A DNA stretch of 42,027 nt from Aliiroseovarius halocynthiae (GTDB taxonomy: Bacteria; Pseudomonadota; Alphaproteobacteria; Rhodobacterales; Rhodobacteraceae): assembly GCF_007004645.1 (NCBI RefSeq), contig NZ_ML660029.1:1-42027 (forward strand), in the 5' to 3' direction. The notes under the pieces were generated by a model. That model was not told the DNA's origin. It worked only from the letters and a program-made list of their open reading frames with translations, and made no database searches. The translations under genes were made by a program, and so were the position numbers. Below are positions 12,230 to 31,081 of the stretch, piece by piece; positions within the stretch are counted from its first letter, which is position 1, and every line of letters begins with the position of its first letter.

Positions 12230-12264
12230 GGGGCGGGGGCGAGCACAATAAGCGCCCTGCCCTT
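12230..12264 (+). terminator. Weak terminator-like hairpin
   Basis: GGGGCGGGGGCG pairs with CGCCCTGCCC with a bulge, followed by TTTC. It sits between the convergent regulator and aldo-keto reductase genes. The short T run makes it uncertain. Confidence 0.4.
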
Positions 12265-12272
12265 TCACCACA

Positions 12273-13244: not shown

Positions 13245-13259
13245 GATAATGTCTCCCTT

Positions 13260-14366: not shown

Positions 14367-14389
14367 CTTAGCCTCCGGTTTGCTATTTC

Positions 14390-14408
14390 GTTTTTTATTA
14401 TTACGTAC
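14390..14408. promoter_or_regulatory. AT-rich operator-like site 3
   Basis: GTTTTTTATTATTACGTAC matches 11256-11274 at 17 of 19 positions. It lies midway in the divergent gap between the UxaB-like/AKR operon and the KdgK-like/mutarotase operon. Confidence 0.6.
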
Positions 14409-14485
14409 AAATTGTCAAGTCGGCACACGCTTGGCTACAACGGAAAACGAATGCCGGCATCAACCGGCTGGGAGGGTTCACCAGA

Positions 14486-15394
14486 ATGGCCATGCGGATA
14501 CTTTTTGCAGGCGAAGTCATGGGCGAATTACGCCGGAACGACACAGGGTATGCCTTGGGTTTTGCTGGCGATACGTTCAACGCCGCCGTCTATTGCAAAC
14601 GCTTGTTGGGGAAGGACGGGCACGTGTCGTATCTGACACGTGTTGGCACCGATCCAATGTCGCAAGGCGCACTGGATCTGGCAGAGGCTGAGGGATTGGA
14701 CACGTCGTCTATCCAGCGCGATACCCGTTACAATCTGGGCCTTTACGCGGTTGCGACGGACGCCGAAGGAGAGCGCAGCTTTTCCTATTGGCGCGACCAA
14801 TCTGCGGCGCGACAGTTGTTCTCCGACCCCGCTGAGCTGGATGCACTGGAGCAGACCGATCTGCTGTGCCTGTCAGGGATCACATTGGCAATCTTGTCGC
14901 CCCAACAGCGCGAGGAACTGTTTCAAAGAATCGCAGAACTGCGGGATGCTGGAACGTTGCGATTGGTCTTCGATGACAACTATCGGCCTGCCTTGTGGGA
15001 AAGCCCCAAGGTCGCACAACAGGTGATGACGCAGGCGTGGTGCTTGACCGACGTCGCTCTGCCCTCGGTCGATGATGAAATGGCGCTGTTTGGCGATGCA
15101 GACGAGGCGGCAGTGCTGGCACGGTTGCGCGGGCTTGGTGTGACCGATGGGGCGCTAAAACGGGCAGCCTCGGGTCCGGTTCCGATCAACCCCGACGTTC
15201 AGATTTCTGCACCCTATCCCGCAGCCGAGCGTGTCGTGGACACCACCGCCGCGGGCGACAGTTTCAATGGCGGCTTTCTGGCCGCGCTGATGCAGGGCGC
15301 CCCGACCGACGCCTGCCTGATGCAAGGTCACATGATGGCACGCGAAGTGGTCGGCCATCCCGGCGCGATCATTCCTAATAGAAAGGACAACTGA
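14486..15394 (+). CDS. PfkB-family sugar kinase, 2-keto-3-deoxygluconate kinase (KdgK)-like
   Basis: A 302-residue ribokinase-fold kinase. The N-terminal substrate motif FAGDTFNAAVYCKRLLG resembles the KdgK GGDTLNTAVYLARLG type. The C-terminal anion-hole and catalytic-base motif reads DTTAAGDSFNGGFLAAL, with Ala where most members have the first Gly of GAGD. GGAGGG nine bases before the ATG sets the start. It would phosphorylate KDG from the UxaA step to KDPG. No KDPG aldolase lies in the window, so it must be elsewhere. The downstream mutarotase begins one base after the stop. Confidence 0.82.
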   Translation: MAMRILFAGEVMGELRRNDTGYALGFAGDTFNAAVYCKRLLGKDGHVSYLTRVGTDPMSQGALDLAEAEGLDTSSIQRDTRYNLGLYAVATDAEGERSFSYWRDQSAARQLFSDPAELDALEQTDLLCLSGITLAILSPQQREELFQRIAELRDAGTLRLVFDDNYRPALWESPKVAQQVMTQAWCLTDVALPSVDDEMALFGDADEAAVLARLRGLGVTDGALKRAASGPVPINPDVQISAPYPAAERVVDTTAAGDSFNGGFLAALMQGAPTDACLMQGHMMAREVVGHPGAIIPNRKDN

Positions 15395-15395
15395 T

Positions 15396-15728
15396 ATGGC
15401 ACAACGCATGGGCAAGGTAATTGGCCTGAAACCTGAACACATGGCCGAATACAAACGTCTGCACGCCGATGTCTGGCCGGATGTGCTGGCGCGGCTGCGC
15501 AAATCGAATATCACCAACTATTCGATCTTCCTGCGCGAGCCCGAAAACCTGATGTTCAGCTATTGGGAATATACCGGAACGGATTTCGAGGCCGACAGCG
15601 CTGCGATTGCCGCCGACCCAGTCACGCAGGATTGGTGGAAAGTCTGTGGTCCGATGCAGGCCCCGCTAGAGACCCGCGCCGAAGGCGAATGGTGGGCGTC
15701 CATGGAAGAGGTTTTCCACCTCGATTAA
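15396..15728 (+). CDS. L-rhamnose/L-fucose mutarotase family protein (RhaM-like)
   Basis: A 110-residue single-domain ferredoxin-like protein of the RhaM/DUF718 family. Conserved positions are the YKRLHADVWPDVLARL helix (19-34), NYSIFL (41-46) and FSYWEYTG. It interconverts sugar anomers so that only the form used by the aldose dehydrogenase or importer is consumed. It is translationally coupled to the KdgK-like gene (one base apart). The family acts on 6-deoxyhexoses, the main sequence clue that L-fucose or L-rhamnose is a substrate of this island. Confidence 0.88.
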   Translation: MAQRMGKVIGLKPEHMAEYKRLHADVWPDVLARLRKSNITNYSIFLREPENLMFSYWEYTGTDFEADSAAIAADPVTQDWWKVCGPMQAPLETRAEGEWWASMEEVFHLD

Positions 15729-15748
15729 TATCCATCAGATAAAATGCA

Positions 15749-15775
15749 AAAGGCCGCCCCAAAAGGGTGGCCTTT
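15749..15775. terminator. Bidirectional terminator between convergent operons
   Basis: AAAGGCCGCCC pairs with GGGTGGCCTTT around CAAAA, with one G-U wobble. It is T-rich on both outer sides (GTCGTTTT on plus, TTGCATTTT on minus). It separates the mutarotase from the TRAP operon. Confidence 0.75.
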
Positions 15776-15801
15776 GTCGTTTTGGACCACGGTCTGCGGG
15801 C

Positions 15802-17082
15802 TTAGTTGCGATACAGCAGCTCGGGCAGGAACATGGTCAGTTGCGGCACGAAGGTTAGCAGCAAAAGCACACCGACCAGCGGAACGACGAAGGGCATGGT
15901 CGCACGCACGCATCGTTCGAACGGCACGTCGGACACCTTGGCCAATACAAACAGTACCATTCCAACGGGTGGCGTCAGTAGGCCGATCATCAGGTTCAGG
16001 ATCACGATCACACCCAAATGGATTGGGTCCACACCAATCTGTGTCGCAATTGGAAGCAACACCGGCACAAGGATCGAAATCGCGGCGATGGTCTCCATAA
16101 ACAGGCCAATGATCAACACGACAAACATGATCATCAGAAGGACCACATATTTGTTTTCGCTGATCCCCAGCAGGGTTTCCGCGAACAACGCCGCTGCCTG
16201 ATTGGCGGTCAGGATCCACGCAAACACGGTGGCTCCGCCCACAATCAACAGGATTGATGCCGTGGTTTCGATCGTCTCAAGCGAGACTTCAACCAACCGC
16301 GGCAGCGTCAGACTTTTATAGACAAACAGCCCAAGAAGCAGCGCATAGGTGGCGGCGCAGACGGCGGCCTCGGTCGGGGTGAAGGCACCGGTTACAATGC
16401 CGCCGACGATGATGACGGGGGTCATCAGGGGCAGAACAGCACGTTTGAAAGACGAACCAACGGTCGACAGGCGGAACGCCACATCGCGCGGATAATTCCG
16501 CTTGCGCGACAGGTACCAGACCATCCCCATCAAGGCGCCAGCCATCAACAGTCCGGGGATAATCCCAGCCACGAACAGCTCGCCAATCGACACCGATGCC
16601 ATGACCCCGAAGATCACCAAGGGCAGCGACGGCGGGATGATCGGTCCGATGGTGGACGAAGCCGCCGTCACACCGACCGAGAAATCATCATCATAGCCTG
16701 CATCTCGCATGGCCTTGATCTCGATCGCGCCAAGCCCTCCCGCATCGGCAACCGCCGCGCCAGACATACCGGCAAAGATGATGCTCGCGCCGATATTCAC
16801 ATGGCCAAGACCGCCATGCATCCAGCCGACAATCGACCGCGCGAAGGTGAAGATCCGCTCGGTGATCCCGGCCGAGTTCATAAGCCCGCCCGCAAGGATG
16901 AAGAACGGGATAGCCAACAGCGGGAACGAGTTCATGCCGTTGATCATGTTATGGGCCAGCAGCACCGGCGGCATGCCTTCGATCAGGATATAGCCCAGTG
17001 AAGATAGGCCAAGTGCGACAGCAATCGGCACGCGCAGCGCCATCAGCGCAAACAGGGCAAGGAACAGAAGTAAGACGGTCAT
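15802..17082 (-). CDS. TRAP transporter large permease, DctM type
   Basis: A 426-residue integral membrane protein of about 12 segments. DctM hallmarks are FFILAGGLMNSAGITERI, AAVADAGGLGAIEIKAM, SSTIGPIIPPSLPLVIFG and LLTPPVGMVLFVLAKVSD. Its ATG overlaps the TGA of the DctQ gene in an ATGA. It forms the Na+-driven elevator that takes organic acids from the DctP binding protein. TRAP systems generally carry carboxylates, so this one may bring in uronates or aldonates while the two ABC systems take neutral sugars. Confidence 0.95.
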   Translation of the reverse strand: MTVLLLFLALFALMALRVPIAVALGLSSLGYILIEGMPPVLLAHNMINGMNSFPLLAIPFFILAGGLMNSAGITERIFTFARSIVGWMHGGLGHVNIGASIIFAGMSGAAVADAGGLGAIEIKAMRDAGYDDDFSVGVTAASSTIGPIIPPSLPLVIFGVMASVSIGELFVAGIIPGLLMAGALMGMVWYLSRKRNYPRDVAFRLSTVGSSFKRAVLPLMTPVIIVGGIVTGAFTPTEAAVCAATYALLLGLFVYKSLTLPRLVEVSLETIETTASILLIVGGATVFAWILTANQAAALFAETLLGISENKYVVLLMIMFVVLIIGLFMETIAAISILVPVLLPIATQIGVDPIHLGVIVILNLMIGLLTPPVGMVLFVLAKVSDVPFERCVRATMPFVVPLVGVLLLLTFVPQLTMFLPELLYRN

Positions 17083-17603
17083 GCGTCACCCCCTTTCACC
17101 AATCGCCATAGCTGGCGCAGTTGCAGCACGACCAGTGCCACCAACGCCGCCAGCAAAAGGGCATAAAGGTAGTATTTCGGGAACGGCAGCGAGACCATTT
17201 TCTGGAAGCTGGTCTGGCGCGCCAGAATGTAAAGTGAATAGAGCAGAAAGCCGAACATGCCGGTCGTGACGATGGCGGCAAAGATCTTGATCGGATGCAG
17301 CAGGTGCCCAACGAACCCGTCAATGAACTCGAGCCGGATATGGGTATCGCGCAGCTGACAACGCAGCGCGCCGGTAAAGGCCAAAAGGATCAAAAGATAG
17401 CGCGCAGCTTCTTCCGTCCAGGACAGCGAGTCGTTCAACACATAGCGCGTCAAAAACTGCAACAGCACTGTGAAGAACAGCGCAGTAAACACGATCAGTG
17501 CAGGGATATCCCAGACCGAGAAAAACTGTCGCCAGGATTTGGTCGTGTTGCCCATCACCTCTTCGGTGAACAGATCGTCCAGATCTTCCGTAGATCGCCC
17601 CAT
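17079..17603 (-). CDS. TRAP transporter small permease, DctQ type
   Basis: A 174-residue protein with four hydrophobic segments and the DctQ motif LSWTEEAARYLLILLAFTGA in the second half of the first pair. The start at MGRSTEDL is chosen because AAGGAGGG lies directly before it; the in-frame Met 34 codons upstream has no such site and begins close to the preceding gene's stop. Unusually long polar N-terminus (about 25 residues) before the first membrane segment. Coupled by a four-base overlap to DctM. Confidence 0.9.
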   Translation of the reverse strand: MGRSTEDLDDLFTEEVMGNTTKSWRQFFSVWDIPALIVFTALFFTVLLQFLTRYVLNDSLSWTEEAARYLLILLAFTGALRCQLRDTHIRLEFIDGFVGHLLHPIKIFAAIVTTGMFGFLLYSLYILARQTSFQKMVSLPFPKYYLYALLLAALVALVVLQLRQLWRLVKGGDA

Positions 17604-17667
17604 GACGCCCTCCTTCAAAGATGAGGGCGCGCGACTAGATCGCACGCCCGTAAGATTTTTATGTGGA

Positions 17668-18648
17668 TTACTTGATCGCCTGAAGGCGCTCGTAAACTTC
17701 GGCATCCCACGGAACGTTCGAACCGGTCAAAGCGGGGGAAACGGCTTCGATAAACGGGCCACGATCGACTTCATTTACGGTCACGCCTTGTTCACGGAAC
17801 CAGTCGGCAAGGCTGGCTTCCGATGCGACGATTTCATTCGACGCCCATTCGGCACCGTGGCGGATCGCGTCTTTCAAGGTTGCCAGATCTTCGTCACTCA
17901 GCTTGGCCACCGTCGCGGGCGAAATCAGCGTTACCAGCGAATTGGTGATGTGGCTGGTTAGGTTAATGTTCGTCTGAACTTCATAGAACTTCTTGAACTG
18001 GATCGTGGGCAGCGGGTTTTCTTGTGCGTCCACCACACCTTGTTGCAGCGCAAGATAGACTTCCGAAAATGCCATCGGCGTCGGGTTCGCACCGGTCGCT
18101 GCGGGGAACATCTGATAGGCAGGTGCGTTCGGCGTACGGATCTTCAACCCTTCCATATCGGCAGGCTTAAGGATCGGCTTGTTCGACGTCACCTGACGCG
18201 ACCCGTAATAGGTCATGGCCACAACGTGGTTGCCGGTCACATCGGTATAGCTTTGCGCAAGTTCCGTAAACAGGTCCGAATTCGCATAGGCCTTCCAGTG
18301 ATCATAGTCACGCAAGGTGAACGGATAGTCCGAGATCGAAATCGGCGGATAGCTTTGGCCCAGGAACGCAACACCGGTATAGATCATGTCGACTGTGCCC
18401 AGCGACAGCCCTTCGTTCAGCGCGGCTTCTTTGCCCAGCTGAGACGCCGGGAAAACTTCGATCTTATAGCGCCCATCGGTGCCTTTTGCGAATTCTTCAG
18501 CCACTTGAAGTGCAGCTTCGTGATACGGAGTTGCTGTCTCATAGACATGGGCAAACTTCAGCACGTCCTCGGCGAATGCCGGGGTAGAGATCGCGATGGT
18601 TGTGGCAGCAAATGCACCAAGAACGGCGCGACGCGGCAGTGAAAACAT
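17668..18648 (-). CDS. TRAP transporter substrate-binding protein, DctP type
   Basis: A 326-residue periplasmic protein with a signal peptide to about residue 26 (FSLPRRAVLG, then ISTPAFA-ED); the twin Arg may allow Tat use but lacks a full motif. DctP features: FAHVYETATPYHEAA, the GLKIRTPNAPAYQ segment with the conserved carboxylate-binding Arg, and FSEVYLALQQGVVDAQENPLP. GGGAGG precedes the ATG; the longer start five codons earlier overlaps that site. It is the first gene of the TRAP operon, read away from the regulator at 18785. Confidence 0.93.
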   Translation of the reverse strand: MFSLPRRAVLGAFAATTIAISTPAFAEDVLKFAHVYETATPYHEAALQVAEEFAKGTDGRYKIEVFPASQLGKEAALNEGLSLGTVDMIYTGVAFLGQSYPPISISDYPFTLRDYDHWKAYANSDLFTELAQSYTDVTGNHVVAMTYYGSRQVTSNKPILKPADMEGLKIRTPNAPAYQMFPAATGANPTPMAFSEVYLALQQGVVDAQENPLPTIQFKKFYEVQTNINLTSHITNSLVTLISPATVAKLSDEDLATLKDAIRHGAEWASNEIVASEASLADWFREQGVTVNEVDRGPFIEAVSPALTGSNVPWDAEVYERLQAIK

Positions 18649-18683
18649 TTGATATCCTCCCAAAATGGACAGTGTCGTGCACT

Positions 18684-19712: not shown

Positions 19713-20480
19713 CTATTTCAGATCAGACGGGTCCATATCGACAATGAAGTAATTGGGATAGCGCTCTAACGCGTCCAAGGTATCACTTTTCAACTGGCTC
19801 AGATGGTGGTCCATACACTCCGCCGCACGCTCGGCATCGCCAGCCTCGATCGCATCTGCGATTTGGCTGTGTTCGGTCACAACCTGATGCATCCGGTTGG
19901 CCACGGGCAAAGTCAGATGGCGGTGCCGATCCATCGGCGTTTTGATCTGCTGAATCACCCGCCACAGCCCCGGAAAGCCGCTCATCTCGGCGATTTGGGC
20001 ATGAAAAGCGCTGTCGGTCTTATCGAATTCGGACTGCTTTCCCGCATCAGCCGCGTCGCGATTATCTTCTATGATCGCACGAAGGTGCAGTTTTTGGGCA
20101 GCCGTTGCCGAAGTTGCGGCGCGCGCCACAAGATCCCGTTCCAAAGCCCGACGCGCGACCAGCGCCTCGGGCAAGATCGACAAAGGAATGCGGGCAACGA
20201 AAGTGCCAGATTTTGGCACCACTTCGACCAACATCTCTTTCACCAGACGCAGCACCGCTTCGCGCACCGGCGTGCGCGAGGCATCAAAGTCGCTGGCGAC
20301 CTCGCGTTCCAGAATGGGGGTGCCAGGCGGCAGGATTAGATTGGTGATGTCATGGTGCAGCTGCTCATAGATGCGATCCGCCAAGGTTTGGCGTGTTCCG
20401 CTTTCGAACTGCCCCTGCCCGGAAGGCGCTGTATTTGCGGCCCTCCGTCGCGGGGCCTGTTTTTCCTGCTCTGACATCAT
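19713..20480 (-). CDS. GntR-family regulator (FadR/FCD subgroup)
   Basis: About 255 residues. A low-complexity basic N-tail (QAPRRRAANTAPSGQG) precedes the winged helix (LPPGTPILEREVASDFDASRTPVREAVLRL) and an FCD domain with FDKTDSAFHAQIAEMSG and a late HSQIADAIEAGDAERAAECMDHHL, where metal-binding His residues usually fall. GGTGAC lies just before ATG-ATG (20480/20477); a GTG nine codons further upstream is less likely. It is divergent from the SDR/hydrolase genes and flanked by a strong inverted repeat, so it likely represses that operon and itself. Confidence 0.87.
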   Translation of the reverse strand: MMSEQEKQAPRRRAANTAPSGQGQFESGTRQTLADRIYEQLHHDITNLILPPGTPILEREVASDFDASRTPVREAVLRLVKEMLVEVVPKSGTFVARIPLSILPEALVARRALERDLVARAATSATAAQKLHLRAIIEDNRDAADAGKQSEFDKTDSAFHAQIAEMSGFPGLWRVIQQIKTPMDRHRHLTLPVANRMHQVVTEHSQIADAIEAGDAERAAECMDHHLSQLKSDTLDALERYPNYFIVDMDPSDLK

Positions 20481-20541
20481 CGTCACCGTTCTGACTGTTG
20501 CCAACACGCCTAAGCGGGCGCGTTGATAATCTCAACTTGTA

Positions 20542-20568
20542 TAACTGGTATATCTGGTATACTAGTTA
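20542..20568. promoter_or_regulatory. 27-bp inverted repeat, GntR operator candidate
   Basis: Arms TAACTGGTATA and TATACTAGTTA are complementary at 10 of 11 positions around TCTGG. It lies in the 164-bp divergent gap between the GntR gene and the SDR. The TGGTATA core resembles TGGT-type sites of FadR-group regulators. Confidence 0.7.
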
Positions 20569-20644
20569 CCAAGAAAACGCAAACTCGCCGCATTCACCGT
20601 GTCGTTTCACCGACAAAGGCGATCTTGTGCAGAAAGGAAACAAG

Positions 20645-21391
20645 ATGAGCTATGAGCTGTCACTGAACGGCAAAACCGCCCTTATCACCGCCGCAGGTCA
20701 GGGCATTGGCCGCGCCAGCGCCGAGGCATTCGCCCGTGCGGGCGCAACGGTCTATGCCACCGATGTCAACGAAACCACACTGGCCGAGCTAGACAAGGTG
20801 GATGGCATTACCGCCCTGAAACTGGACGTGATGGACGCAGACAACATCGCCTCGGTTCTGGCGCAAACCGGACCGCTGGACGTCCTGTTCAACTGCGCAG
20901 GCTTCGTGCATGCGGGTAGTATTCTGGAATGCCCGGAAGACGACTGGGATTTCGCCTTCAACCTGAATGCCAAAGCGCAATACCGCATGTGTCAGGCCGT
21001 TCTGCCCGATATGCTGGCCAAGGGTGGCGGATCGATCATCAACATGGCCTCGGTCGCGTCGTCGATCAAAGGCGTGCCGAACCGCTTTGCATATTGTGCA
21101 TCGAAAGCCGCCGTCATTGGCCTGACAAAAGCCATCGCTGCCGACTTTGTTACCAAAGGCATTCGATGCAACGCGATCTGCCCCGGCACCGTCGACAGCC
21201 CGTCGCTGCACGACCGCCTGCGCGCGACCGGAGATTACGATCAAGCCATGAAAGATTTCATTGCCCGCCAGCCCATGGGCCGCGTTGGGGACGCTGATGA
21301 GGTCGCTGCACTAGCGCTGTATCTGGCCTCGGATGCCAGCGGCTTTACCACCGGACAAACCCACACAATCGACGGCGGCTGGACCGCCTGA
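20645..21391 (+). CDS. SDR dehydrogenase, 2-keto-3-deoxy-L-fuconate 4-dehydrogenase candidate
   Basis: A 248-residue classical SDR. The cofactor motif T15-AAGQGIG (15-22) is followed by D40 at the end of strand 2, which favours NAD. NCAG (83-86), catalytic Ser in VASS (137-140), Y150 and K154 (YCASK) and PGTVDSP are present. The C-terminus ends TIDGGWTA. In the non-phosphorylating L-fucose and L-rhamnose routes an SDR oxidises C4 of the 2-keto-3-deoxy acid, and the FAH hydrolase encoded 13 bases downstream then splits the product. The start is set by AAGGA; the in-frame extension of 49 codons runs through the operator and is rejected. Confidence 0.85.
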   Translation: MSYELSLNGKTALITAAGQGIGRASAEAFARAGATVYATDVNETTLAELDKVDGITALKLDVMDADNIASVLAQTGPLDVLFNCAGFVHAGSILECPEDDWDFAFNLNAKAQYRMCQAVLPDMLAKGGGSIINMASVASSIKGVPNRFAYCASKAAVIGLTKAIAADFVTKGIRCNAICPGTVDSPSLHDRLRATGDYDQAMKDFIARQPMGRVGDADEVAALALYLASDASGFTTGQTHTIDGGWTA

Positions 21392-21404: not shown

Positions 21405-22247
21405 ATGAAACTTTTGCGTTACGGCCCCAAGGGGCAGGAAAAGCCGGGCATTCTGGATGCTGACGGCAAAGTGCGGGATCTGTCTGCACATGTGGCCGAC
21501 ATTGCGGGTGATGCACTGGGCGACGCAGGTCTTGCGAAGATCGCAGCCCTTGATCTGGCCACCCTGCCCGAAGTCGAAATCGATCGCTATGGCCCCTGCG
21601 TCTCGGGCGTGGGAAAGTTCATCTGTATCGGTCTGAACTACTCTGACCACGCCGCCGAAAGCGGCCTGCCTGTGCCTTCCGAGCCTGTAATTTTCGCCAA
21701 GGCCACATCGGCCATCTGCGGCCCCAACGACAATATCGAAATCCCGCGCGGATCCACCGCCACCGACTGGGAAGTCGAACTGGGCGTCGTGATCGGAAAA
21801 GAGGCCAAATATATCGACGAGGCCGACGCGCTGGACTATATCGCGGGCTATTGCGTAATCAACGACATCTCGGAACGCGACTTCCAGATCAAGCGCGAAG
21901 GCCAGTGGACCAAAGGCAAATCTGCCGACACCTTCGGCCCAATCGGCCCGTGGCTGGTTACCCGGGACGAGGTTCCGGACCCGCAGGCCCTGTCCATGTA
22001 TCTGGACGTAAATGACAAGCGCATGCAGGACGGTTCGACCAACACCATGGTCTATGGCGTCGCCCATGTGGTTGCTTACCTTTCGCAATTCATGTCGCTT
22101 CAGCCGGGTGACATCATCTCGACCGGGACACCTCCGGGTGTTGGTCTGGGCATGAAGCCCGACCCTGTTTATCTCAAGGCAGGGGACAAGATGGAGCTTG
22201 GCATTGATGGGCTTGGCACGCAGACCCAAACGGTTGTGCAAGGCTAA
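21405..22247 (+). CDS. FAH-family hydrolase, 2,4-diketo-3-deoxy-L-fuconate hydrolase candidate
   Basis: A 280-residue fumarylacetoacetase-fold protein. Diagnostic stretches are KFICIGLNYSDHAAESG (with the catalytic His), the metal-ligand pair in DWEVELGVVIG, INDISERDFQ, SADTFGPIGPWLV and ISTGTPPGVGLGM. It would cleave a 2,4-diketo-3-deoxyhexonate to pyruvate plus a 2-hydroxyacid: L-lactate from L-fucose or L-rhamnose, L-glycerate if C6 carries a hydroxyl. GGAG before the ATG sets the start. It is followed by a terminator-like hairpin before the glycerate kinase. Confidence 0.87.
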   Translation: MKLLRYGPKGQEKPGILDADGKVRDLSAHVADIAGDALGDAGLAKIAALDLATLPEVEIDRYGPCVSGVGKFICIGLNYSDHAAESGLPVPSEPVIFAKATSAICGPNDNIEIPRGSTATDWEVELGVVIGKEAKYIDEADALDYIAGYCVINDISERDFQIKREGQWTKGKSADTFGPIGPWLVTRDEVPDPQALSMYLDVNDKRMQDGSTNTMVYGVAHVVAYLSQFMSLQPGDIISTGTPPGVGLGMKPDPVYLKAGDKMELGIDGLGTQTQTVVQG

Positions 22248-22318: not shown

Positions 22319-23590
22319 ATGGACACGAAAACCCTTCTTCACGACATGTTTGACGCGGCACTTTCCGCCGCCGATCCGTTGAAAGCCGTAACGGGCCACT
22401 TGCCCCCACGCCCGACGGGTCGTGTGATCGTTGTGGGGGCCGGAAAGGCCTCGGCCCGCATGGCGCAGGCGGTCGAGGCAGAATGGGGTCCGTGCGAAGG
22501 TATCGTCATTGTGCCCTACGGCGCGGCCCTGCCCTGCGACGGCATCCGCATTGTCGAAGGGCGCCATCCGGTGCCCGATCAGGCCGGATCAGATGCCGCG
22601 CACGAAATCCTATCTCTGGTCAGTTCTGCGGATGAAGACGACTTTGTGCTTTGCCTGATTTCCGGTGGCGGCTCAGCACTGTTGTCGGTGCCGGGCGCTG
22701 GCCTCAACCTTGAGGACAAGCAGTTGATCAACCGTGCGCTTCTGACCTCGGGCGCAGCGATTGACGAGATGAACATCGTGCGCAAACACACGTCTTCCAT
22801 CAAAGGCGGGCGGCTGGCGCAGGCGGCCTATCCCGCGCAGGTTCTGACGCTGGTAATCTCGGATGTGCCGGGGGATGACCCGGCCGACATCGCCTCTGGC
22901 CCCACAGTGCCGGACCCATCCACAGCCGCAGATGCGCGCGCCATTATCGACCGGTTTGATTTGGATCTGCCCGATCAGATTCTGGCCGCATTGCACCAAG
23001 CCAGCGCCGAGACACCAACCCCATCCAACCCCTGTTATATAAAAACCGAAACACGGGTGGTCGCGGCGCCGCAGGCATCGCTTGATGCCGCCACCAAGGT
23101 CGCCCGCGCTGCTGGATACACTCCGGTCCTACTGGGTGACGCACTGGAAGGCGAAGCCCGCGAGATGGGTAAAATTATGGGGGGCATCGCGAAACAGGTG
23201 CGCCGCCACGGCCAACCCGCACGCGGCAAGGTCGCGCTAATCTCTGGCGGCGAGGCCACCGTGACCGTGACCGTGACCGGCACGCCCGGCAAAGGCGGCC
23301 GCTGCACCGAGTTCTTGCTGGGTTTCGCGCTGGCCACTTGGGACGAAACAGGCATGGCCGCGCTGGCCTGCGACACGGATGGGCGCGACGGATCGGAACA
23401 CAATGCAGGCGCAGTTTGGCTGCCGCAACATCGCGCCAATGCGGACCGCGAGGACGCGTTGGATCATCTGTCGCGCCACGACGCCTATTCCTTTTTTGAC
23501 CAACACGACGCGCTGGTCACGACCGGCCCAACTCATACCAATGTGAACGACTTCCGGGTCGTTCTGGTGGAGACTGCAAATGACGATTGA
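22319..23590 (+). CDS. Glycerate 2-kinase (GckA/TtuD, MOFRL family)
   Basis: A 423-residue class II glycerate kinase that forms 2-phosphoglycerate from D-glycerate and ATP. Motifs: GRVIVVGAGKASARMAQAVE (34-53), EGRHPVPDQAG, LISGGGSALL (113-122), catalytic-region RKHTSSIKGGRLA, LVISDVPGDDPADIASGPTVPDP, and the MOFRL part with ISGGEATVTV, GGRCTEF, ACDTDGRDG and TGPTHTNVNDFRV. Many members read GGRNQE where this has GGRCTE. A short triple repeat of ACCGTG encodes TVTVTV. It overlaps larA by 11 bases, which ties glycerate use to the nickel-pincer enzyme. Confidence 0.9.
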   Translation: MDTKTLLHDMFDAALSAADPLKAVTGHLPPRPTGRVIVVGAGKASARMAQAVEAEWGPCEGIVIVPYGAALPCDGIRIVEGRHPVPDQAGSDAAHEILSLVSSADEDDFVLCLISGGGSALLSVPGAGLNLEDKQLINRALLTSGAAIDEMNIVRKHTSSIKGGRLAQAAYPAQVLTLVISDVPGDDPADIASGPTVPDPSTAADARAIIDRFDLDLPDQILAALHQASAETPTPSNPCYIKTETRVVAAPQASLDAATKVARAAGYTPVLLGDALEGEAREMGKIMGGIAKQVRRHGQPARGKVALISGGEATVTVTVTGTPGKGGRCTEFLLGFALATWDETGMAALACDTDGRDGSEHNAGAVWLPQHRANADREDALDHLSRHDAYSFFDQHDALVTTGPTHTNVNDFRVVLVETANDD

Positions 23591-24887
23591 ATTACTTTTT
23601 GGCCGGGCCGGCCTGTCCCTGACCCTGCCCGAAACCGCCCGCGCCCATGTGATCGAAAAACCCGCCTTTCCGCCATGCACCGCGCCCAATGAGCAGATCG
23701 CTCAGGCCTTCGTGACGCCGCACGGATCTGCACCTTTGGCGGAACTGGCGCGTGGCAAACGCTCGGCCTGTATCCTGATCTGCGACATCACCCGGCCCGT
23801 CCCCAACCACCTGTTTCTGCGCCCGATGATCGAGACACTCACCAACGAGGGCATTCCACTTGATCAGATCACCGTGCTGATCGCCACTGGGCTGCACCGT
23901 CCCAACGAAGGCGACGAACTGGCCGAGCTGGTCGGTGATCCTTGGGTGGTCGAAAACGTCCGGGTCGAAAACCATTTTGCGCTGGAAGATGCCGATCACA
24001 TTGATCTTGGCGTGACCCCGAAACGCGGCGTCCCCATCAAGATTGACCGCCGAATTGTCGAGGCAGATTTGAAAATCGCCACCGGTCTGGTCGAACCGCA
24101 TTTCATGGCGGGCTTTTCCGGTGGTCGCAAAGTCGTTGCCCCCGGCGTCGCCCATCACGAAACCATCCGCACCTTCCATTCCGCTCGTTTCATGGAGCAC
24201 CCCTTGGCCCGCGAATGCAATCTGGACGGCAATCCACTGCATGAAGAGCAGCTGGAAATCGTGCGCCGTCTGGGCGACGTGTATGCGCTGAACACCGTGA
24301 TCGACGATAAGCGCAATCTGGTCTATTGCAGCTTTGGCGAGATTGTTGAAAGCCATCTGGCCGCCGTGGATTTCGTACGTGGCTATACAGAGATCCCTGT
24401 GGGGCGAAAGTTTAAAACCGTGGTTACCTCGGCCGCCGGATATCCGTTGGATCAGACCTATTACCAGACGGTGAAAGGCATGGTCACGCCGCTTGATATA
24501 CTGGCCGAAGGCGGCACGCTGATCATCGCATCCTCTTGCGCCGAGGGCATCGGGTCCGACCATTTCCGCGCCGCTCAGGAACGGCTGGTCGCCTTGGGCC
24601 CAGAGGCGTTTTTGGCTGGCCTGGAAGCGAAGAGTTTCGCTGACGTGGATGAATGGCAGACAGAAATGCAGCTGAAACCCATGCGGGTCGGGCAGATCCA
24701 GCTTTACGCCCCAGCCCTGTCCGATGATGATTTCGCCGTCACTGGGGTCGAGCGGATTTCCGATCTGCCAACTGCCATTGCCGACAGCATCGCGCGCCAT
24801 GGTGATACAGATATCGCCGTGATCCCCGAAGGTCCTTATGTGGTACCTCAGGCCACCCCGCGCATGCCTTCTGTGGCCACCCAATGA
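23580..24887 (+). CDS. larA: LarA-family nickel-pincer racemase/epimerase
   Basis: A 435-residue member of the LarA (DUF2088) family, which inverts 2-hydroxyacids through a tethered nickel-pincer nucleotide (NPN). The functional residues known from Lactobacillus LarA fall almost at the same numbers: H106 (TGLHRPN; H108 there), H174 (EPHFMAGF), K184 (GGRKVVAPG, the NPN-binding Lys) and H200 (RTFHSARFM, nickel ligand). DITRPVP (69-75) carries the conserved Arg. The enzyme therefore looks active. Substrate is not readable: LarA homologues act on lactate, malate, aromatic hydroxyacids and gluconate. It overlaps the glycerate kinase upstream (11 bases) and larC downstream (4 bases), suggesting glycerate, lactate or an aldonate. 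Confidence 0.9.
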   Translation: MTIELLFGRAGLSLTLPETARAHVIEKPAFPPCTAPNEQIAQAFVTPHGSAPLAELARGKRSACILICDITRPVPNHLFLRPMIETLTNEGIPLDQITVLIATGLHRPNEGDELAELVGDPWVVENVRVENHFALEDADHIDLGVTPKRGVPIKIDRRIVEADLKIATGLVEPHFMAGFSGGRKVVAPGVAHHETIRTFHSARFMEHPLARECNLDGNPLHEEQLEIVRRLGDVYALNTVIDDKRNLVYCSFGEIVESHLAAVDFVRGYTEIPVGRKFKTVVTSAAGYPLDQTYYQTVKGMVTPLDILAEGGTLIIASSCAEGIGSDHFRAAQERLVALGPEAFLAGLEAKSFADVDEWQTEMQLKPMRVGQIQLYAPALSDDDFAVTGVERISDLPTAIADSIARHGDTDIAVIPEGPYVVPQATPRMPSVATQ

Positions 24888-26041
24888 ACCGCCATCTGCA
24901 TCTTGACCCGGTAGGCGGGATATCGGGCGACATGTTTCTGGGGGCTATGCTGTCAGCCTTTCCCGACGCCCGCACACCCTTAGTGCAGGATTGGCAAGAC
25001 GCTGGGATCGCCGATCATGTGCGACTTGAGCTTGAGGAAACGCGCGAGAAAGGCTTTGCCTGCCTGCGCGCCAAAGTGATCACCGCAAGCGACGCGCCCC
25101 CCACCGCCCATTGGGCCGACATTCGTGCGAGGATTGCTGAAAGCGCCCTGCGCACCCCGGTGCAAGAACGCGCAATCGCGATCTTCTCAAAACTGGCAGA
25201 AGCGGAAGCCGCGTGCCACGGCGTGACCGTTGATCAGGTACATTTCCACGAAATCGCCGACTGGGATTCGCTGGCCGACATCATCGGCGCGGCCTCGGTT
25301 CTGGAAAGCAGCGGCGCAAGCAGCTTTTCCACCAGCCCCATCCCAATAGGCGGCGGGCGTACCCGCACGCAGCACGGCCTGATCCCCGTTCCCGCGCCGG
25401 CAACCGCCGAATTGTTGCACGGGTTTGAACTGTTTGACGATGGTGGGCGCGGCGAGCGCGTCACCCCCACAGGCGCCGCAATCCTGGCGCATCTAATCCC
25501 AACACCTCTGCCCTATTCGCCACGCGGACTGCTTGCAAGCAGGGGCACCGGAGCGGGCCAGATGCAGATTGCAGGCATCCCCAATATTCTTCGCATTCTG
25601 ACGCTCGACACACTGAGCGCGCCCGCCCAAGCTGTTTCCCTGATCCGGTTTGAAATCGACGACATGACCCCCGAAGAGTTGTCTGTCGCGCTGGACCATT
25701 TACGCGCGGCAGACGGTGTTCTGGATGCTGGATATCAGATCGGGTTCGGCAAAAAGGGGCGCACCCAGTTTTCTGTGACCGTGATGACCCAGCCCGCCCA
25801 ATGCGACCACGTGATCACGCGCTGTTTTGAAGAAACTAGCACCATTGGATTGCGCGTAGACATGACTCATCGCCATGTATTGCCCCGCACCGAAACTGTT
25901 CGAAATGGCACACCAATCAAAACCGTTGCCCGGCCCGGCGGCACCACGTCCAAGGCCGAAAGTGACGCTTTGGCACGGACCTCCACCTTGAAGGCACGAC
26001 GATGGCAGGCAAAACAAGCGGAACAGTGCGATGACGATTGA
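24884..26041 (+). CDS. larC: LarC, nickel insertion enzyme for the NPN cofactor
   Basis: A 385-residue DUF111-family protein, cytosolic, which inserts nickel into the pincer nucleotide in a CTP-dependent reaction. Features: N-terminal HLDPVGGISGDMFLGAML (6-23), VHFHEIADWDSLADIIGAA, HGLIPVPAPATAELL, ERVTPTGAAIL, and a C-terminal part with FEIDDMTPEELSVALDHL and STIGLRV. In Lactobacillus the gene is split and needs a frameshift; here both halves are in one uninterrupted frame. ATGA overlap with larA and 11-base overlap with larE. Confidence 0.9.
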   Translation: MNRHLHLDPVGGISGDMFLGAMLSAFPDARTPLVQDWQDAGIADHVRLELEETREKGFACLRAKVITASDAPPTAHWADIRARIAESALRTPVQERAIAIFSKLAEAEAACHGVTVDQVHFHEIADWDSLADIIGAASVLESSGASSFSTSPIPIGGGRTRTQHGLIPVPAPATAELLHGFELFDDGGRGERVTPTGAAILAHLIPTPLPYSPRGLLASRGTGAGQMQIAGIPNILRILTLDTLSAPAQAVSLIRFEIDDMTPEELSVALDHLRAADGVLDAGYQIGFGKKGRTQFSVTVMTQPAQCDHVITRCFEETSTIGLRVDMTHRHVLPRTETVRNGTPIKTVARPGGTTSKAESDALARTSTLKARRWQAKQAEQCDDD

Positions 26042-26825
26042 TCCCCTGATCCGCCTGCACGATGTCCTGTGTGAACTGCCCAACCTGACCGTGGCCGTAA
26101 GCGGTGGCGTCGACAGCCTGACCCTTGCATTCACCGCCGCCCGCGTGGTCCCCGGTTTTTCCGCACTCCACGCTGTTTCACCCTCGGTCCCACCTGCTGC
26201 GACACAGCGGGTGAAAGACTATGCGCTGCGTCACAACTGGCCGCTAAAGTTGATTGAAAGTGGCGAGTTTAACGATGAACGCTATCGCGCAAACCCTCAC
26301 GATCGTTGCTATTTTTGCAAATCAAACCTCTATGCCACAATGGCCGCGCGCAGTTCCGGACCACTAGCGTCTGGCACCAATCTTGATGATCTGGGCGACT
26401 ATCGCCCCGGCCTGATTGCCGCAAAAGAACACGGTGTGCGTCATCCCTTTGTCGAAGCCGGAATCGACAAGGCTACGCTGCGCCAGATCGCGGTGCAGTT
26501 TGGGCTTGCGGACATCGCCGCGCTGCCCGCTCAGCCCTGTCTGGCCAGCCGCATCATGACCGGGTTGCGGATCGCGCCCGAAGATCTGGAGTTTGTAGAC
26601 AAAGTCGAAGCCCTTCTGCGCGACCATGTACCGGGCGATCTACGCTGTCGGGTCACAGCCGATGGCGTGGTGATCGAAGCCGACCACCTTCCCACAACCG
26701 CCACCGCCTTGGCTGCAGCACAGTGCCAAAAAGCTGGCCGCATCTTTCTGGGGCATAAACCCTATCAACGCGGCAGTGCCTTTGTATTGCCTGACACTCT
26801 GGAAGCGGATCAACACCATGGATGA
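26031..26825 (+). CDS. larE: LarE, ATP-dependent sulfur transferase for the NPN cofactor
   Basis: A 264-residue PP-loop protein. SGGVDS (24-29) binds ATP to adenylylate the pyridinium carboxylate. C170 in PCLASRI corresponds to the sulfur-donating Cys of the sacrificial type; C93 and C96 (DRCYFCK) add two more conserved Cys. A three-Cys arrangement is the one reported for LarE proteins that hold a [4Fe-4S] cluster and turn over catalytically, so this may be that type (inference). ASGTNLDDLGDYRPG is the usual PP-loop helper motif. It overlaps larC and larB. Confidence 0.9.
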   Translation: MTIDPLIRLHDVLCELPNLTVAVSGGVDSLTLAFTAARVVPGFSALHAVSPSVPPAATQRVKDYALRHNWPLKLIESGEFNDERYRANPHDRCYFCKSNLYATMAARSSGPLASGTNLDDLGDYRPGLIAAKEHGVRHPFVEAGIDKATLRQIAVQFGLADIAALPAQPCLASRIMTGLRIAPEDLEFVDKVEALLRDHVPGDLRCRVTADGVVIEADHLPTTATALAAAQCQKAGRIFLGHKPYQRGSAFVLPDTLEADQHHG

Positions 26826-27498
26826 GCACACGATTTTCGACTGGTCCCGAAAGGCACGCACCGGCGTCCCAGAAGTCGTGTTTGCCGAAGGCAAGACCGT
26901 GGAGCAGATCGACGACATCCTTATGGCGCATCACGAGCGCAGCGCGCCCCTGTTGACAACCCGCCTGACGCCAGAGCAGATGGCGCATCTTGGCGCGCTG
27001 ACCCTGCCCCACTTGTCCCTTGATCCTCTGGCGCGATTGGCCAGCCATCGCGCACCCATCCCCGCCGCCGACGCACCTGAAGTTGCCGTCGTCTGTGCGG
27101 GCACTTCAGATCTTCCCGTCGCACGCGAGGCGCTTTTGTCGGCACGTTTCCTAGGCCTGCGGGCCGATCTGATCTGCGATGTGGGCGTGGCCGGCCTGTG
27201 GCGGTTAGAACAGCACTTGCCCACGCTGACCCGACACCGGGTGGTGATCGCCGTGGCCGGAATGGAGGGCGCGCTTTTCTCGGTCCTCGGGGGGCTGTTA
27301 CCCGGTGCAATTATCGCGGTGCCAACATCGGTGGGCTACGGTGTTGGCGCACAGGGAAAAGCAGCGCTCAGCTCGGCCCTGTCCAGCTGCGCGCCGGGCG
27401 TGCTGACTGTGAATATCGACAATGGGTTCGGCGCTGCAGCGGCGGCGGCCAAGATCTTAAGGCCACCCCAAATTCAAAGCGACAATCCATCGGGATGA
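26818..27498 (+). CDS. larB: LarB, nicotinic acid adenine dinucleotide carboxylase/hydrolase
   Basis: A 226-residue AIR-carboxylase-like enzyme making the first NPN precursor from NaAD and CO2. Motifs: VVCAGTSDLPVAREAL (91-106), VAGMEGALFSVLGGLLPG (146-163), VPTSVGYG (168-175), and C191 in SCAPGVLTVNIDNGFGAA, where the adduct-forming Cys of known LarB lies. The ATG at 26818 overlaps the larE stop by eight bases (ATGGATGA); an in-frame ATG 14 codons upstream sits inside larE and is rejected. Last gene of the lar operon; no clear terminator follows. Confidence 0.9.
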   Translation: MDEHTIFDWSRKARTGVPEVVFAEGKTVEQIDDILMAHHERSAPLLTTRLTPEQMAHLGALTLPHLSLDPLARLASHRAPIPAADAPEVAVVCAGTSDLPVAREALLSARFLGLRADLICDVGVAGLWRLEQHLPTLTRHRVVIAVAGMEGALFSVLGGLLPGAIIAVPTSVGYGVGAQGKAALSSALSSCAPGVLTVNIDNGFGAAAAAAKILRPPQIQSDNPSG

Positions 27499-27658: not shown

Positions 27659-28678
27659 GTGAATTCATTCCCGACCCGCCGTCTTGCAGGCACGCAGATT
27701 GATCTGCCGGTTCTTGGCTTTGGTGGCGCACCTCTTGGCGGGTTGATGACCGCAAATGACACGACCGAAACGCAAGCTATGCTGCCCGAAGTGCTGGCAG
27801 CCGGGTATCGCTATGTGGACACAGCGCCCTTTTATGGGTTTGGCAAATCCGAACGGATGATCGGCGACCTGCTGCGCGGGCGCGACTATGTCCTATCCAC
27901 CAAAGTAGGCCGCCTTCTGAAACCCGGCCTGCCCGCCGATCCTGCTGCTATGGGCTGGCCCGATCCCCTGCCGTTCCACCCGGTCTTTGACTACTCCTAT
28001 GACGCGATCATGCGGTCTTTTGAGGACAGCCAACAACGGCTTGGGCTGGATAAGATCGACATCCTGTTTGTCCATGACATAGGCGAGATGACCCATGGCG
28101 CTGACGACAATGCGCACCACTTCGCCACGCTGCGCGACAGTGGCTACCGCGCGCTAGACGAGCTGCGCAGCGCAGGTAACATCAAAGCCATCGGGCTGGG
28201 CGTGAACGAAGTGCAAGTCTGTCGCGATGCGCTTACAATCGGCGATTGGGACGTCTTTCTGCTGGCCGGACGCTATACGCTGCTAGAGCAGGCTCCGCTG
28301 GATGATCTGTTCCCCGAATGCGCTGCTGCCGGGACCCAGATCATCGTTGGAGGGCCATATAACTCTGGCATTCTGGTCGGCGGCACCACGTGGAATTATG
28401 GCGACGCACCGGAACAGGTGATCACCCGCGTGTCCGCCTTACGCGCCTGTGCAGATCGCCACAACGTTCCCCTGCCCGCCGCCGCGCTACAATTCCCGCT
28501 CGCCCATCCGCTGGTCGTCTCGATCATTCCGGGCCTGCGGTCACGCGCCGAGCTGACCCAGACGCTGGACTGGGTCGCAACCGACATTCCCGCCGCCTTC
28601 TGGCACGACCTTCGGGCCGAGGGGCTTTTGCATCCCAAAGCCCCAATCCCGACACAGAACCCATATAAAAGGGGATAA
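27659..28678 (+). CDS. Aldo-keto reductase, L-galactose/L-fucose 1-dehydrogenase type (second copy)
   Basis: A 339-residue AKR starting at GTG, with a perfect AAGGAGG seven bases upstream; the in-frame ATG 41 codons earlier lacks a ribosome site and runs through the promoter gap. The catalytic set is Asp/Tyr in YVDTAPFYGFG, Lys in STKVGR and His in LFVHDIGE. YNSGILVGG and SIIPGLRSRAEL match the cofactor region. It is paralogous to 12273-13244. It opens an operon with a lactonase three bases downstream and a UxaA-type dehydratase, so oxidation, lactone opening and dehydration are encoded in pathway order. Confidence 0.87.
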   Translation: MNSFPTRRLAGTQIDLPVLGFGGAPLGGLMTANDTTETQAMLPEVLAAGYRYVDTAPFYGFGKSERMIGDLLRGRDYVLSTKVGRLLKPGLPADPAAMGWPDPLPFHPVFDYSYDAIMRSFEDSQQRLGLDKIDILFVHDIGEMTHGADDNAHHFATLRDSGYRALDELRSAGNIKAIGLGVNEVQVCRDALTIGDWDVFLLAGRYTLLEQAPLDDLFPECAAAGTQIIVGGPYNSGILVGGTTWNYGDAPEQVITRVSALRACADRHNVPLPAAALQFPLAHPLVVSIIPGLRSRAELTQTLDWVATDIPAAFWHDLRAEGLLHPKAPIPTQNPYKRG

Positions 28679-28681: not shown

Positions 28682-29512
28682 ATGCGTATCGACGCACACC
28701 AACATTTCTGGGCGCTGGCCCGTGGCGACTATGGCTGGTTATCCGATGATCTGGCCGCAATCTATCGCGATTTCTTGCCCGAAGATCTGGCCCCGATGCT
28801 GGACACCGCCGGCATAGATGGCACGGTTCTGGTGCAGGCTGCCCCCACTGTGGCCGAGACCGATTTTATGCTGTCTCTGGCCGATAGAAACACCTTCATT
28901 AAAGGCGTGGTTGGCTGGGTGGATTTCGAGAACGCAGCGTCGGTCGCGGAGATCGACCGCTATATGCAGCACCCAGCTTTTGTGGGCCTGCGCCCGCTAA
29001 TTCAGGACATCGCGGACGCTGACTGGATGTTGCGCGACGACCTGACGCCTGTCTTTGACGCTTTGATCGCTCGTGATCTGACCTTTGACGCGCTGACCCT
29101 GCCGCGCCACCTGCCGAACCTGCACAAGCTGCTGGCCCGCCACCCGGATATGCGGGTTGTGATCGACCATAGCTCGAAACCTCTGATCCGCGATGGCGTG
29201 ATGGACGGCTGGGCGCAGGACATGAGCGCTTTGGCGCACAACACCAACGCCTTCTGCAAGCTGTCAGGGCTATTGACCGAGGCCAAATCCGACTGGATTG
29301 TCGACGATCTGCGCCCCTATGTCGATCACCTGCTGAACACATTCGGTCCCGACCGCCTGCTGTGGGGCAGCGACTGGCCGGTTCTTAACCTTGCCGGGGA
29401 TTATGCCCGCTGGGTCGAGGTCACCGACCAACTGCTCTCCGACCTCTCGGATGCGGATCGCAGCGCAATTTTGGGCGGAAATGCTGCCCGTGCCTATAAG
29501 TTGCGGGATTAA
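28682..29512 (+). CDS. Amidohydrolase, L-fucono/L-galactono-lactonase type (second copy)
   Basis: A 276-residue COG3618 protein: D4-A-H6-Q-H8 at the N-terminus, GVVGWVDFE, VIDHSSKP, CKLSGLLTE and LLWGSDWPVL. It is collinear with 221-1057, including the unusual ALARxDYGWL stretch after the metal motif, so the two are recent paralogues. It starts three bases after the aldo-keto reductase stop. Expected to open the lactone made by that enzyme. Confidence 0.88.
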   Translation: MRIDAHQHFWALARGDYGWLSDDLAAIYRDFLPEDLAPMLDTAGIDGTVLVQAAPTVAETDFMLSLADRNTFIKGVVGWVDFENAASVAEIDRYMQHPAFVGLRPLIQDIADADWMLRDDLTPVFDALIARDLTFDALTLPRHLPNLHKLLARHPDMRVVIDHSSKPLIRDGVMDGWAQDMSALAHNTNAFCKLSGLLTEAKSDWIVDDLRPYVDHLLNTFGPDRLLWGSDWPVLNLAGDYARWVEVTDQLLSDLSDADRSAILGGNAARAYKLRD

Positions 29513-29563: not shown

Positions 29564-31081
29564 GTGCCGACCCAATACATCCGCCTTCACCCCACAGACA
29601 ACGTGGTCGTCGCACTGTGTGACCTGCCGGACGCCTGCGCGCTGGACGGGCTTGACCTGACCCTGTCGCAACCCATCACGCAGGGGCATAAGATCGCGAC
29701 CCGTGCTGTGTCAGCCGGGGAAAACATCGTGAAATACGGGCAGATCATCGGACAGGCCAAAGCGGATATTGCCGCGGGCGATCACGTCCACATCCATAAT
29801 CTGGGCATGGGGGCGCATCAGCAAGACTATGGTTTCGCCAGCCAAAACACCCCACTTCCCGCAATCACCGAAACGCGCCAATTCCAGGGTTTTCACCGCG
29901 CCGATGGCAGGGTCGGCACCCGCAACTATGTGGGTATCGTGACCTCGGTGAACTGCTCGGGATCGGTCGCGCGTTTCATCGCCGAAGCGGCCCGGAATGA
30001 AGGGTTGCTGGACGCCTTCCCCAATGTGGACGGGATCGTGCCCATCGTGCATGGCACCGGCTGCGGCATGGCCAATAAAGGCGTTGGATTTGACACACTG
30101 TTTCGCACGCTCAAAGGCTATGCACAGCATCCGAATTTCGGCGGCATCCTGATGATCGGGCTGGGCTGCGAAATCATGCAGCTCGCAGATCTGGTGGGCG
30201 ACCGCCCCATTCGCGCCGATGGTGCACTGCGCTATATGACCATTCAACACGAAGGCGGCACACGCCGCACCGTCGACAAAGGGCTGGCAGAACTGCGTGG
30301 CATTCTAGAGCTGGCCAATCAGGCAACCCGCGCGCCCGCGCCCATCAGCGCAATCACTGTGGGCATGCAATGCGGCGGCTCGGACGGGTATTCAGGGATC
30401 ACCGCGAACCCGGCATTGGGTGCAGCCTCGGACCTTTTGGTGCGCCAGGGCGGCACCACCATCCTGTCCGAAACATCCGAGATCTATGGCGCCGAACATC
30501 TGCTGACCCGTCGCGCCGAGACACAGGCCATTGGCGAGAAACTAATCGCGCGGATCCAGTGGTGGGAAGACTATACCGCCCGCAATGATGGCGAGATGGA
30601 CAACAATCCCAGCCCCGGCAACAAGCGCGGCGGGCTGACGACCATTCTGGAAAAGTCTCTGGGCGCTGTGGCCAAAGGCGGCTCGGCCCCCCTGCGCGAT
30701 GTCTATCTGTACGGCGAAAAGATCGACACGCCCGGCTTCGTCTTTATGGACAGCCCCGGCTATGACCCGTGTTCGGTCACCGGGCAGGTTGCTTCGGGCG
30801 CGAACCTGATCGTGTTCACCACCGGGCGCGGATCGGTGTCGGGCTATCAGCCCACGCCCTGCATCAAGGTTGCCACCAATTCCGAAATGTACGCCCGCCT
30901 GTCCGAAGATATGGATCTGAACTGCGGGGATATCGTGACCGATGGCGTATCCATTGACGACAAAGGAGCTGAGATGCTGGAGCTGATGATCCGCGTGGCC
31001 TCGGGCGAGCGGACCAAAAGCGAAGAGCTGGGATTTGGAGGGGTCGAATTCGTCCCCTGGCAAATCGGCGCGGTGATGTAA
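29564..31081 (+). CDS. uxaA: UxaA/GarD-family dehydratase (altronate dehydratase type)
   Basis: A 505-residue protein, full length for the family. An N-terminal SAF-like domain (residues 1-95: IATRAVSAGENIVKYGQIIGQA) is joined to the catalytic part, with DGRVGTRNYVGIVTSVNCS, VHGTGCGMANKG, MIGLGCEIMQ, MQCGGSDGYSGITANPALG, FMDSPGYDPCSVTGQVASGANLIVFTTGRGSV and GYQPTPCIKVATNSEM. Members are iron-dependent and dehydrate D-altronate, galactarate or related acids. With the LgoD-, UxaB- and KdgK-like genes, D-altronate to KDG fits best. It starts at GTG with AAGGAG seven bases upstream and closes the second AKR/lactonase operon. Confidence 0.85.
   Translation: MPTQYIRLHPTDNVVVALCDLPDACALDGLDLTLSQPITQGHKIATRAVSAGENIVKYGQIIGQAKADIAAGDHVHIHNLGMGAHQQDYGFASQNTPLPAITETRQFQGFHRADGRVGTRNYVGIVTSVNCSGSVARFIAEAARNEGLLDAFPNVDGIVPIVHGTGCGMANKGVGFDTLFRTLKGYAQHPNFGGILMIGLGCEIMQLADLVGDRPIRADGALRYMTIQHEGGTRRTVDKGLAELRGILELANQATRAPAPISAITVGMQCGGSDGYSGITANPALGAASDLLVRQGGTTILSETSEIYGAEHLLTRRAETQAIGEKLIARIQWWEDYTARNDGEMDNNPSPGNKRGGLTTILEKSLGAVAKGGSAPLRDVYLYGEKIDTPGFVFMDSPGYDPCSVTGQVASGANLIVFTTGRGSVSGYQPTPCIKVATNSEMYARLSEDMDLNCGDIVTDGVSIDDKGAEMLELMIRVASGERTKSEELGFGGVEFVPWQIGAVM

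Follow-up and report, generated by a model that had tools for sequence, protein, structure and literature searches.

A gene for a class II glycerate 2-kinase and a complete lar operon lie head to tail in a stretch of Aliiroseovarius halocynthiae DNA that makes up an entire contig of 42,027 bases (NZ_ML660029.1, below called the window; genome size 3.39 Mb). The lar genes encode LarA, a nickel-pincer (NPN) 2-hydroxyacid racemase, and the cofactor proteins LarC, LarE and LarB. We propose that kinase and lar genes probably work as one glycerate assimilation unit, in which L-glycerate would be turned into D-glycerate and this into 2-phosphoglycerate, and we predict glycerate to be the likely working substrate of kinase-linked LarA. 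The operon, the protein families, the conserved residues and the repeated association of lar with two unrelated families of kinase are observed; substrate, direction and L-glycerate source are inferred. We also lean, with some reserve, towards a dedicated nickel-dependent pathway of L-glycerate assimilation that was built more than once from lar and either of the two kinase families, with a Rhodobacterales module (GntR regulator, kinase, larA, larC, larE, larB) inserted alone or beside L-sugar genes.

Open reading frames and a direct read-out of the sequence confirmed the head-to-tail overlaps described in the earlier note on this DNA: 11 bases between kinase and larA, 4 between larA and larC, 11 between larC and larE and 8 between larE and larB. 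The GGAG ribosome site for larA sits inside the kinase gene, as it does in three related loci (L003, L005 and L090), and the 11-base overlap indicates that kinase and larA are translationally coupled. The genes for NPN synthesis (larB, larC and larE) are present in the same operon as larA. For larB we take the ATG at 26818 as start; a GTG at 26776 could serve as an alternative that gives a longer frame. Promoter and terminator scans gave no signal above shuffle level.

To place this arrangement, LarA relatives were collected by a scan of genome contigs, and the best 80 of at least 539 were kept as loci with up to 10 kb on each side of lar; some stretches were short, and 54 of the 80 had 5 kb on both sides. 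Five further loci stand outside the 80: the window, L090 (genome G013), L094 (genome G542) and L101 and L102, which are both plasmids. Forty selected neighbour proteins were annotated by Pfam. In 14 loci, these five included, a glycerate kinase lay no more than 10 kb from lar, and the possibility that the linkage is a peculiarity of this genome is thereby excluded by 13 other cases. Among the 80 loci, 62 carried larC, larE and larB together, seven a MOFRL kinase (L003, L005, L019, L038, L051, L058 and L069) and two a GarK-type kinase (PF02595; L056 and L060), giving nine with any glycerate kinase; for loci with 5 kb on both sides the figure was 8 of 54. The seven MOFRL kinases compare with a chance expectation of 0.31 over the combined 1.38 Mb of these 80 loci (Poisson 4.5e-8), and the enrichment persisted when the seven were reduced to four lineages (3e-4). 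The background rate (48 kinases in 210.6 Mb from 38 lar-bearing genomes) is conservative, because the lar-linked kinases are counted in it. An earlier enrichment figure (9 of 38 genomes vs 0.17 expected) was set aside, since those genomes were hand-chosen and included kinase-linked ones. On a quick LarA tree of 92 rows, which carries a long-branch warning at the I. pallida LarA, 11 changes of the kinase label are required overall, and on the labelled rows four for MOFRL and two for GarK.

MOFRL-lar linkage was found in Rhodobacterales, Granulosicoccaceae, Rhizobiales and one Burkholderiales genome, and linkage to GarK, which by Pfam is unrelated to MOFRL, in Betaproteobacteria, in Rhodovastum and in a single genome whose LarA is distant. 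The gene orders differ between these lineages. In the Rhodobacterales (window, L003, L005 and L090) the kinase precedes larA with an 11-base overlap in all four, and the divergent GntR regulator is shared as well; in L003 and L090 the GntR-kinase-larA-C-E-B unit stands without L-sugar genes. Two Granulosicoccaceae loci (L058 and L069, Gammaproteobacteria) have kinase-larA-C-E-B beside a TRAP transporter, whereas in the Rhizobiales (L038, L051 and L102) the kinase lies downstream of larB. In L019 it is convergent and about 2.2 kb from lar, within a run of pyruvate kinase, kinase, reductase, isomerase and thiamine pyrophosphate-dependent carboligase that corresponds to the tartronate semialdehyde route (gcl-hyi-glxR-kinase-pyk). 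The GarK loci read KdgT permease, larA-C-E-B, GarK in L101, and tartronate semialdehyde reductase (487 bits in L056, cut-off 397), GarK, KdgT and then larA in the Betaproteobacteria L056 (Propionivibrio) and L060 (Accumulibacter). In L094 the order is larA-GarK-larC-larE-larB, and its LarA (loop F, F and Q359) shares about 31% identity with the window's; this locus is a single case, as a search for a second larA-garK operon in the family of G542 returned 1 of 246 genomes, G542 itself. These differing arrangements argue against one inherited accident.

Two side observations concern these loci. The larA of L090 (G013:C1, 10208-11496) has a frame change near codon 89 and is either a decaying copy or a sequencing error, while its kinase, larC, larE and larB look open. 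KdgT-family permeases adjoin lar in L053, L056, L060, L093, L095 and L101, with or without a kinase, and may carry short hydroxyacids rather than 2-keto-3-deoxygluconate (KDG).

The window kinase scored 285 bits on DUF4147 (cut-off 23) and 105 bits on MOFRL (cut-off 28.3), the composition of class II glycerate 2-kinases such as T. tenax GK and the GckA type. It fell below the cut-offs of two NCBIfam equivalog models that are archaeal-type by name (NF041176, 255 of 550 bits; NF040791, 166 of 670 bits). The known class II kinases are described as serving Entner-Doudoroff, one-carbon or glyoxylate routes (PMC2063504); the one in the window instead overlaps larA. Its genome holds two MOFRL kinases, 35% identical to each other, and no GarK-type kinase was found there. 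The genomes of L003, L005, L058, L069 and L090 gave no match to either kinase family besides the lar-linked one. A kinase 56% identical to the window's also occurs without lar on a Qingshengfaniella plasmid (L103, 8001-9236), next to an SDR, a TRAP transporter and a D-erythronate dehydrogenase.

LarA matched Lar_N with 181 bits (cut-off 23.3) and LarA_C with 57 bits (cut-off 25), and its nearest solved structures are the I. pallida racemase (9eia), followed by L. plantarum LarA and the malate racemase Mar2. The residues H106, H174, K184 and H200, which the earlier note had listed as retained, are all present, their counterparts in the L. plantarum enzyme being H108, H174, K184 and H200; the catalytic His108 and His174 and the NPN residues R75, K184 and H200 of the latter are identical in the alignment. 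In the substrate pocket, F175 and M176 follow His174, with W358 and Q359 further on. Leu-Met or Phe-Met after His174 is given as the rule for group 2 LarA enzymes, the short-chain aliphatic 2-hydroxyacid racemases (SARs; PMC7583248), and the window LarA has the Phe-Met form. Lactate racemases (LARs) are described as usually having F, F, W, E/Q, and every LAR tested in that work racemised glycerate (PMC11770544). The pocket F, M, W, Q is of LAR/SAR type, and characterised LAR/SAR enzymes are reported to take glycerate. LarAH43 of Enterocloster asparagiformis, which like the window LarA has Q359, was slightly more active on glycerate than on lactate (kcat/KM 114,000 and 83,000 per M per s; PMC11770544); judged from its published description it falls with L. 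plantarum LarA in the LAR branch, where the loop is normally F, F rather than F, M. The I. pallida enzyme (LarAH2, a group 2 SAR) shares the His-X-Met loop, W358 and Q359 with the window LarA, has Leu where the window has Phe, and is reported to accept L-glycerate (PMC11851776) but to favour lactate and 2-hydroxybutyrate.

The pocket residues do not distinguish glycerate from lactate. F, M, W, Q at 175, 176, 358 and 359 are shared by 81 of the 82 members of the clade (L057 alone deviates, with F, V), and we rejected the pocket as a specificity test as it does not separate kinase-linked from GlcD-linked loci. Q359 was likewise rejected as a glycerate marker, being frequent in LARs and present in the I. 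pallida LarA.

In the proposed mechanism LarB, LarE and LarC would make the nickel-pincer cofactor, with which LarA would turn L- and D-glycerate into each other through proton-coupled hydride transfer. The class II kinase would trap D-glycerate as 2-phosphoglycerate, so that the racemase would be drawn towards D-glycerate. The L-product of a glycerate kinase would not be the usual substrate of enolase. L-glycerate itself would come from L-galactose-type acids, from which a dehydratase would form L-2-keto-3-deoxygalactonate (L-KDGal); the SDR encoded upstream of the kinase would oxidise this at C4, and the neighbouring FAH hydrolase would split the product into pyruvate and L-glycerate. From 6-deoxy sugars the same enzymes would yield L-lactate, which needs no racemase, given that the genome encodes an LldD-type L-lactate dehydrogenase (420 bits, cut-off 376). 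The kinase-racemase logic of the earlier note, from L- to D-glycerate to 2-phosphoglycerate, is supported.

A source of L-glycerate in this island is plausible. The structure 8XWK, a relative of the window SDR, is an L-2-keto-3-deoxyfuconate (L-KDF) 4-dehydrogenase (PMC11199699), for which activities of 7900 on L-KDF, 1480 on L-KDGal and 75 on D-KDG (per min per mM) are given, a 20-fold better use of L-KDGal than of D-KDG. According to the same source L-KDF passes through the dehydrogenase and the FAH enzyme to L-lactate; from L-KDGal we would expect L-glycerate. An H. huttiense member of the altronate-dehydratase family is described as weakly dehydrating D-altronate, L-fuconate and L-galactonate (12, 5.6 and 2.4% of D-arabinonate; PMC6336799).

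Several observations weigh against the glycerate reading. No kinase was present in the stretches of 71 of the 80 loci, nor in 46 of those 54 whose flanks reached 5 kb either way, and it was missing near the closest LarA of all (L002, 83%) and near L004 and L006 of the same clade. The best LarA model among the matches listed, NF033504 for nickel-dependent lactate racemase, gave 344 bits against a cut-off of 460, so that LarA has no curated substrate assignment, and Q359 is reported as frequent among lactate racemases and present in the lactate-preferring I. pallida enzyme. The T. tenax class II kinase is described as phosphorylating L-glycerate at 30% of the D rate (PMC2063504), so that a racemase would not be an absolute requirement. 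Eight of the 80 loci and the plasmids L099 and L100 have the same LarA pocket and no kinase, but a GlcD-like FAD oxidase (243 bits, below the cut-off of 568), in the order ABC transporter, larA, NAD-dependent reductase, larC-E-B, SDR, mostly FAH, and oxidase; a preference for glycerate or lactate is therefore not readable from sequence. For these loci a role in lactate metabolism is as good an explanation or a better one, and LarA enzymes of this clade may well act on both acids, context deciding. A Tepidibacter plasmid offers an ordinary lactate context, with an L-lactate permease beside larA. In the window, a lactate racemase would act on L-lactate released from L-fucose or L-rhamnose by SDR and FAH, an FAD-linked oxidase would take the D-lactate to pyruvate, and the kinase would only share the transcript and serve another branch. 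The preference of the SDR relative for the lactate-yielding deoxy substrate (7900 vs 1480), the Rhizobium, Phyllobacterium and Kaistia clusters that join lar, SDR, FAH and GlcD-like oxidase without a kinase, and the four FAD-oxidase_C proteins in this genome all fit such a role. We nevertheless find it unlikely, as the genome has its LldD-type dehydrogenase, and as lactate explains neither the kinase-lar units without SDR and FAH (L003, L058, L069 and L090) nor the use of two unrelated kinase families. When this genome's LldD was used as query, none of the lar loci examined yielded an lldD relative; other lactate genes were not sought everywhere.

The kinase might also take D-glycerate that is made directly, with LarA acting elsewhere: L-galactonate would pass through tagaturonate and altronate to D-KDG, and SDR and FAH would release pyruvate and D-glycerate. 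The window does encode a Zn-alcohol dehydrogenase, a tagaturonate-reductase-like protein, an altronate-dehydratase-family protein and a KDG kinase relative, so that products other than L-glycerate are possible too, and an L-galactose route via altronate and KDG is reported in Luteolibacter (PMC12632266). With a KDG kinase at hand, conversion of KDG to 2-keto-3-deoxy-6-phosphogluconate would be simpler, however, the characterised dehydrogenase uses D-KDG poorly (75 vs 1480 for L-KDGal), and kinase-lar units away from such genes are left unexplained; we consider this route improbable, more so than a lactate racemase. Least credible, to the point of being very improbable, is a LarA that epimerises a sugar acid of the island at C2. 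It is flanked by sugar-acid genes, and epimerisation of gluconate or mannonate is reported for some LarA homologues (PMC7583248, PMC11770544), but the described gluconate epimerases have E, V, A, H where the window LarA has F, M, W, Q, and the kinase linkage stays unexplained.

The enzymes belong to known families, and their coupling places a published activity in a new physiological setting. The earlier note's expectation that a glycerate racemase would be a new function fails, because LarAH43 (PMC11770544, 2024) and I. pallida LarA (PMC11851776) have been published as acting on glycerate; the former account states that the physiological significance of this activity remains to be determined. 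In the open-licence PMC papers searched, neither the phrase 'glycerate racemase' nor a joint mention of 'lactate racemase' with 'glycerate kinase' was found. The recurrent linkage gives LarA glycerate racemisation a concrete, if proposed, cellular role, and offers a substrate prediction for many proteins named 'lactate racemase' by default. If true, it would also explain bacterial use of L-glycerate, the expected route 3 product of L-galactose-type acids. Route III has reportedly been suggested to end in D- or L-glycerate (Watanabe et al. 2019, Mol. Microbiol.).

The larA gene counts as accessory: relatives (E 1e-20 or better) occurred in 4 of 394 genomes of the same taxonomic family, its own included, and the other listed genome of the genus had none. 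Lar_N was found in 7 of 397 genomes of a phylum sample, which is too few for linkage statistics.

The genes around the operon (Table 1) resemble the non-phosphorylating route 3 pathway of L-fucose and L-rhamnose (FucF/FucG, LRA5/LRA6), with SDR and FAH relatives side by side here too, whereas the window adds kinase and racemase. The structural matches agree with the earlier note's assignment of SDR and FAH to L-sugar breakdown. Its coupling of these genes to the lar-kinase operon fared less well: among the loci examined, only the window and L005 combine a kinase, FAH and SDR in the neighbourhood of lar, and most kinase-lar loci are without L-sugar genes. The true start of the SDR is probably near 20648. 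The FAH hydrolase, which would release pyruvate plus L-lactate or L-glycerate, scored 442 bits on NF053535 (diketo-rhamnonate hydrolase), below the cut-off of 500. Behind larB an AT-rich gap of 161 bases precedes the aldo/keto reductase gene, which has its own Shine-Dalgarno sequence.

Table 1. Annotated features of the window.
Feature	Position	Strand	Basis
Enolase-superfamily sugar-acid dehydratase	4160-5359		best structure 3ddm (uncharacterised protein)
Zn-alcohol dehydrogenase	7309-8346		nearest PRK10083
Tagaturonate-reductase-like protein	13260-14366		
KDG kinase relative	14486-15394		
GntR/FCD regulator, divergent from SDR-FAH-kinase-lar run	19713..20507	-	NCBIfam GntR-type matches, all below cut-off
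SDR dehydrogenase, relative of L-2-keto-3-deoxyfuconate 4-dehydrogenase	20498..21391	+	8y4j/8xwk E ~3e-96; adh_short
FAH-family hydrolase, L-2,4-diketo-3-deoxyrhamnonate hydrolase relative	21405..22247	+	8gsr E 3e-101
Glycerate 2-kinase, class II (DUF4147 + MOFRL)	22319..23590	+	Pfam; structures 2b8n, 1x3l
LarA, NPN 2-hydroxyacid racemase; proposed L-/D-glycerate racemase	23580..24887	+	Lar_N, LarA_C; nearest structure 9eia; residues
LarC, nickel insertion, single unbroken frame	24884..26041	+	Ni_insertion; LarC1 + LarC2 models above cut-off
LarE, sulfur transferase for NPN	26031..26825	+	TIGR00268 224 bits, cut-off 150
LarB, NPN carboxylase	26818..27498	+	NF033503 251 bits, cut-off 175
Aldo/keto reductase, putative L-fucose/L-galactose dehydrogenase	27660..28678	+	Aldo_ket_red; cluster position
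Amidohydrolase, L-fucono-1,5-lactonase-like	28682..29512	+	NF052480 229 bits, below cut-off 400
Altronate/galactarate dehydratase family protein	29564..31081	+	GD_AH_C, GD_AH_second, SAF; 6u7l

A second L-sugar set lies upstream (221-18663) and comprises a lactonase-like amidohydrolase, the enolase-superfamily dehydratase, the Zn-alcohol dehydrogenase, an aldo/keto reductase, the tagaturonate-reductase-like protein, the KDG kinase relative, a mutarotase, and ABC and TRAP transporters. No relative of its dehydratase was found in the lar loci examined. The two amidohydrolases of the window are 45% identical and the two aldo/keto reductases 43%. In Oceanomicrobium (L005, 17569-19218) a sulfatase gene adjoins the lar-FAH-SDR cluster, which may point to sulfated algal sugars.

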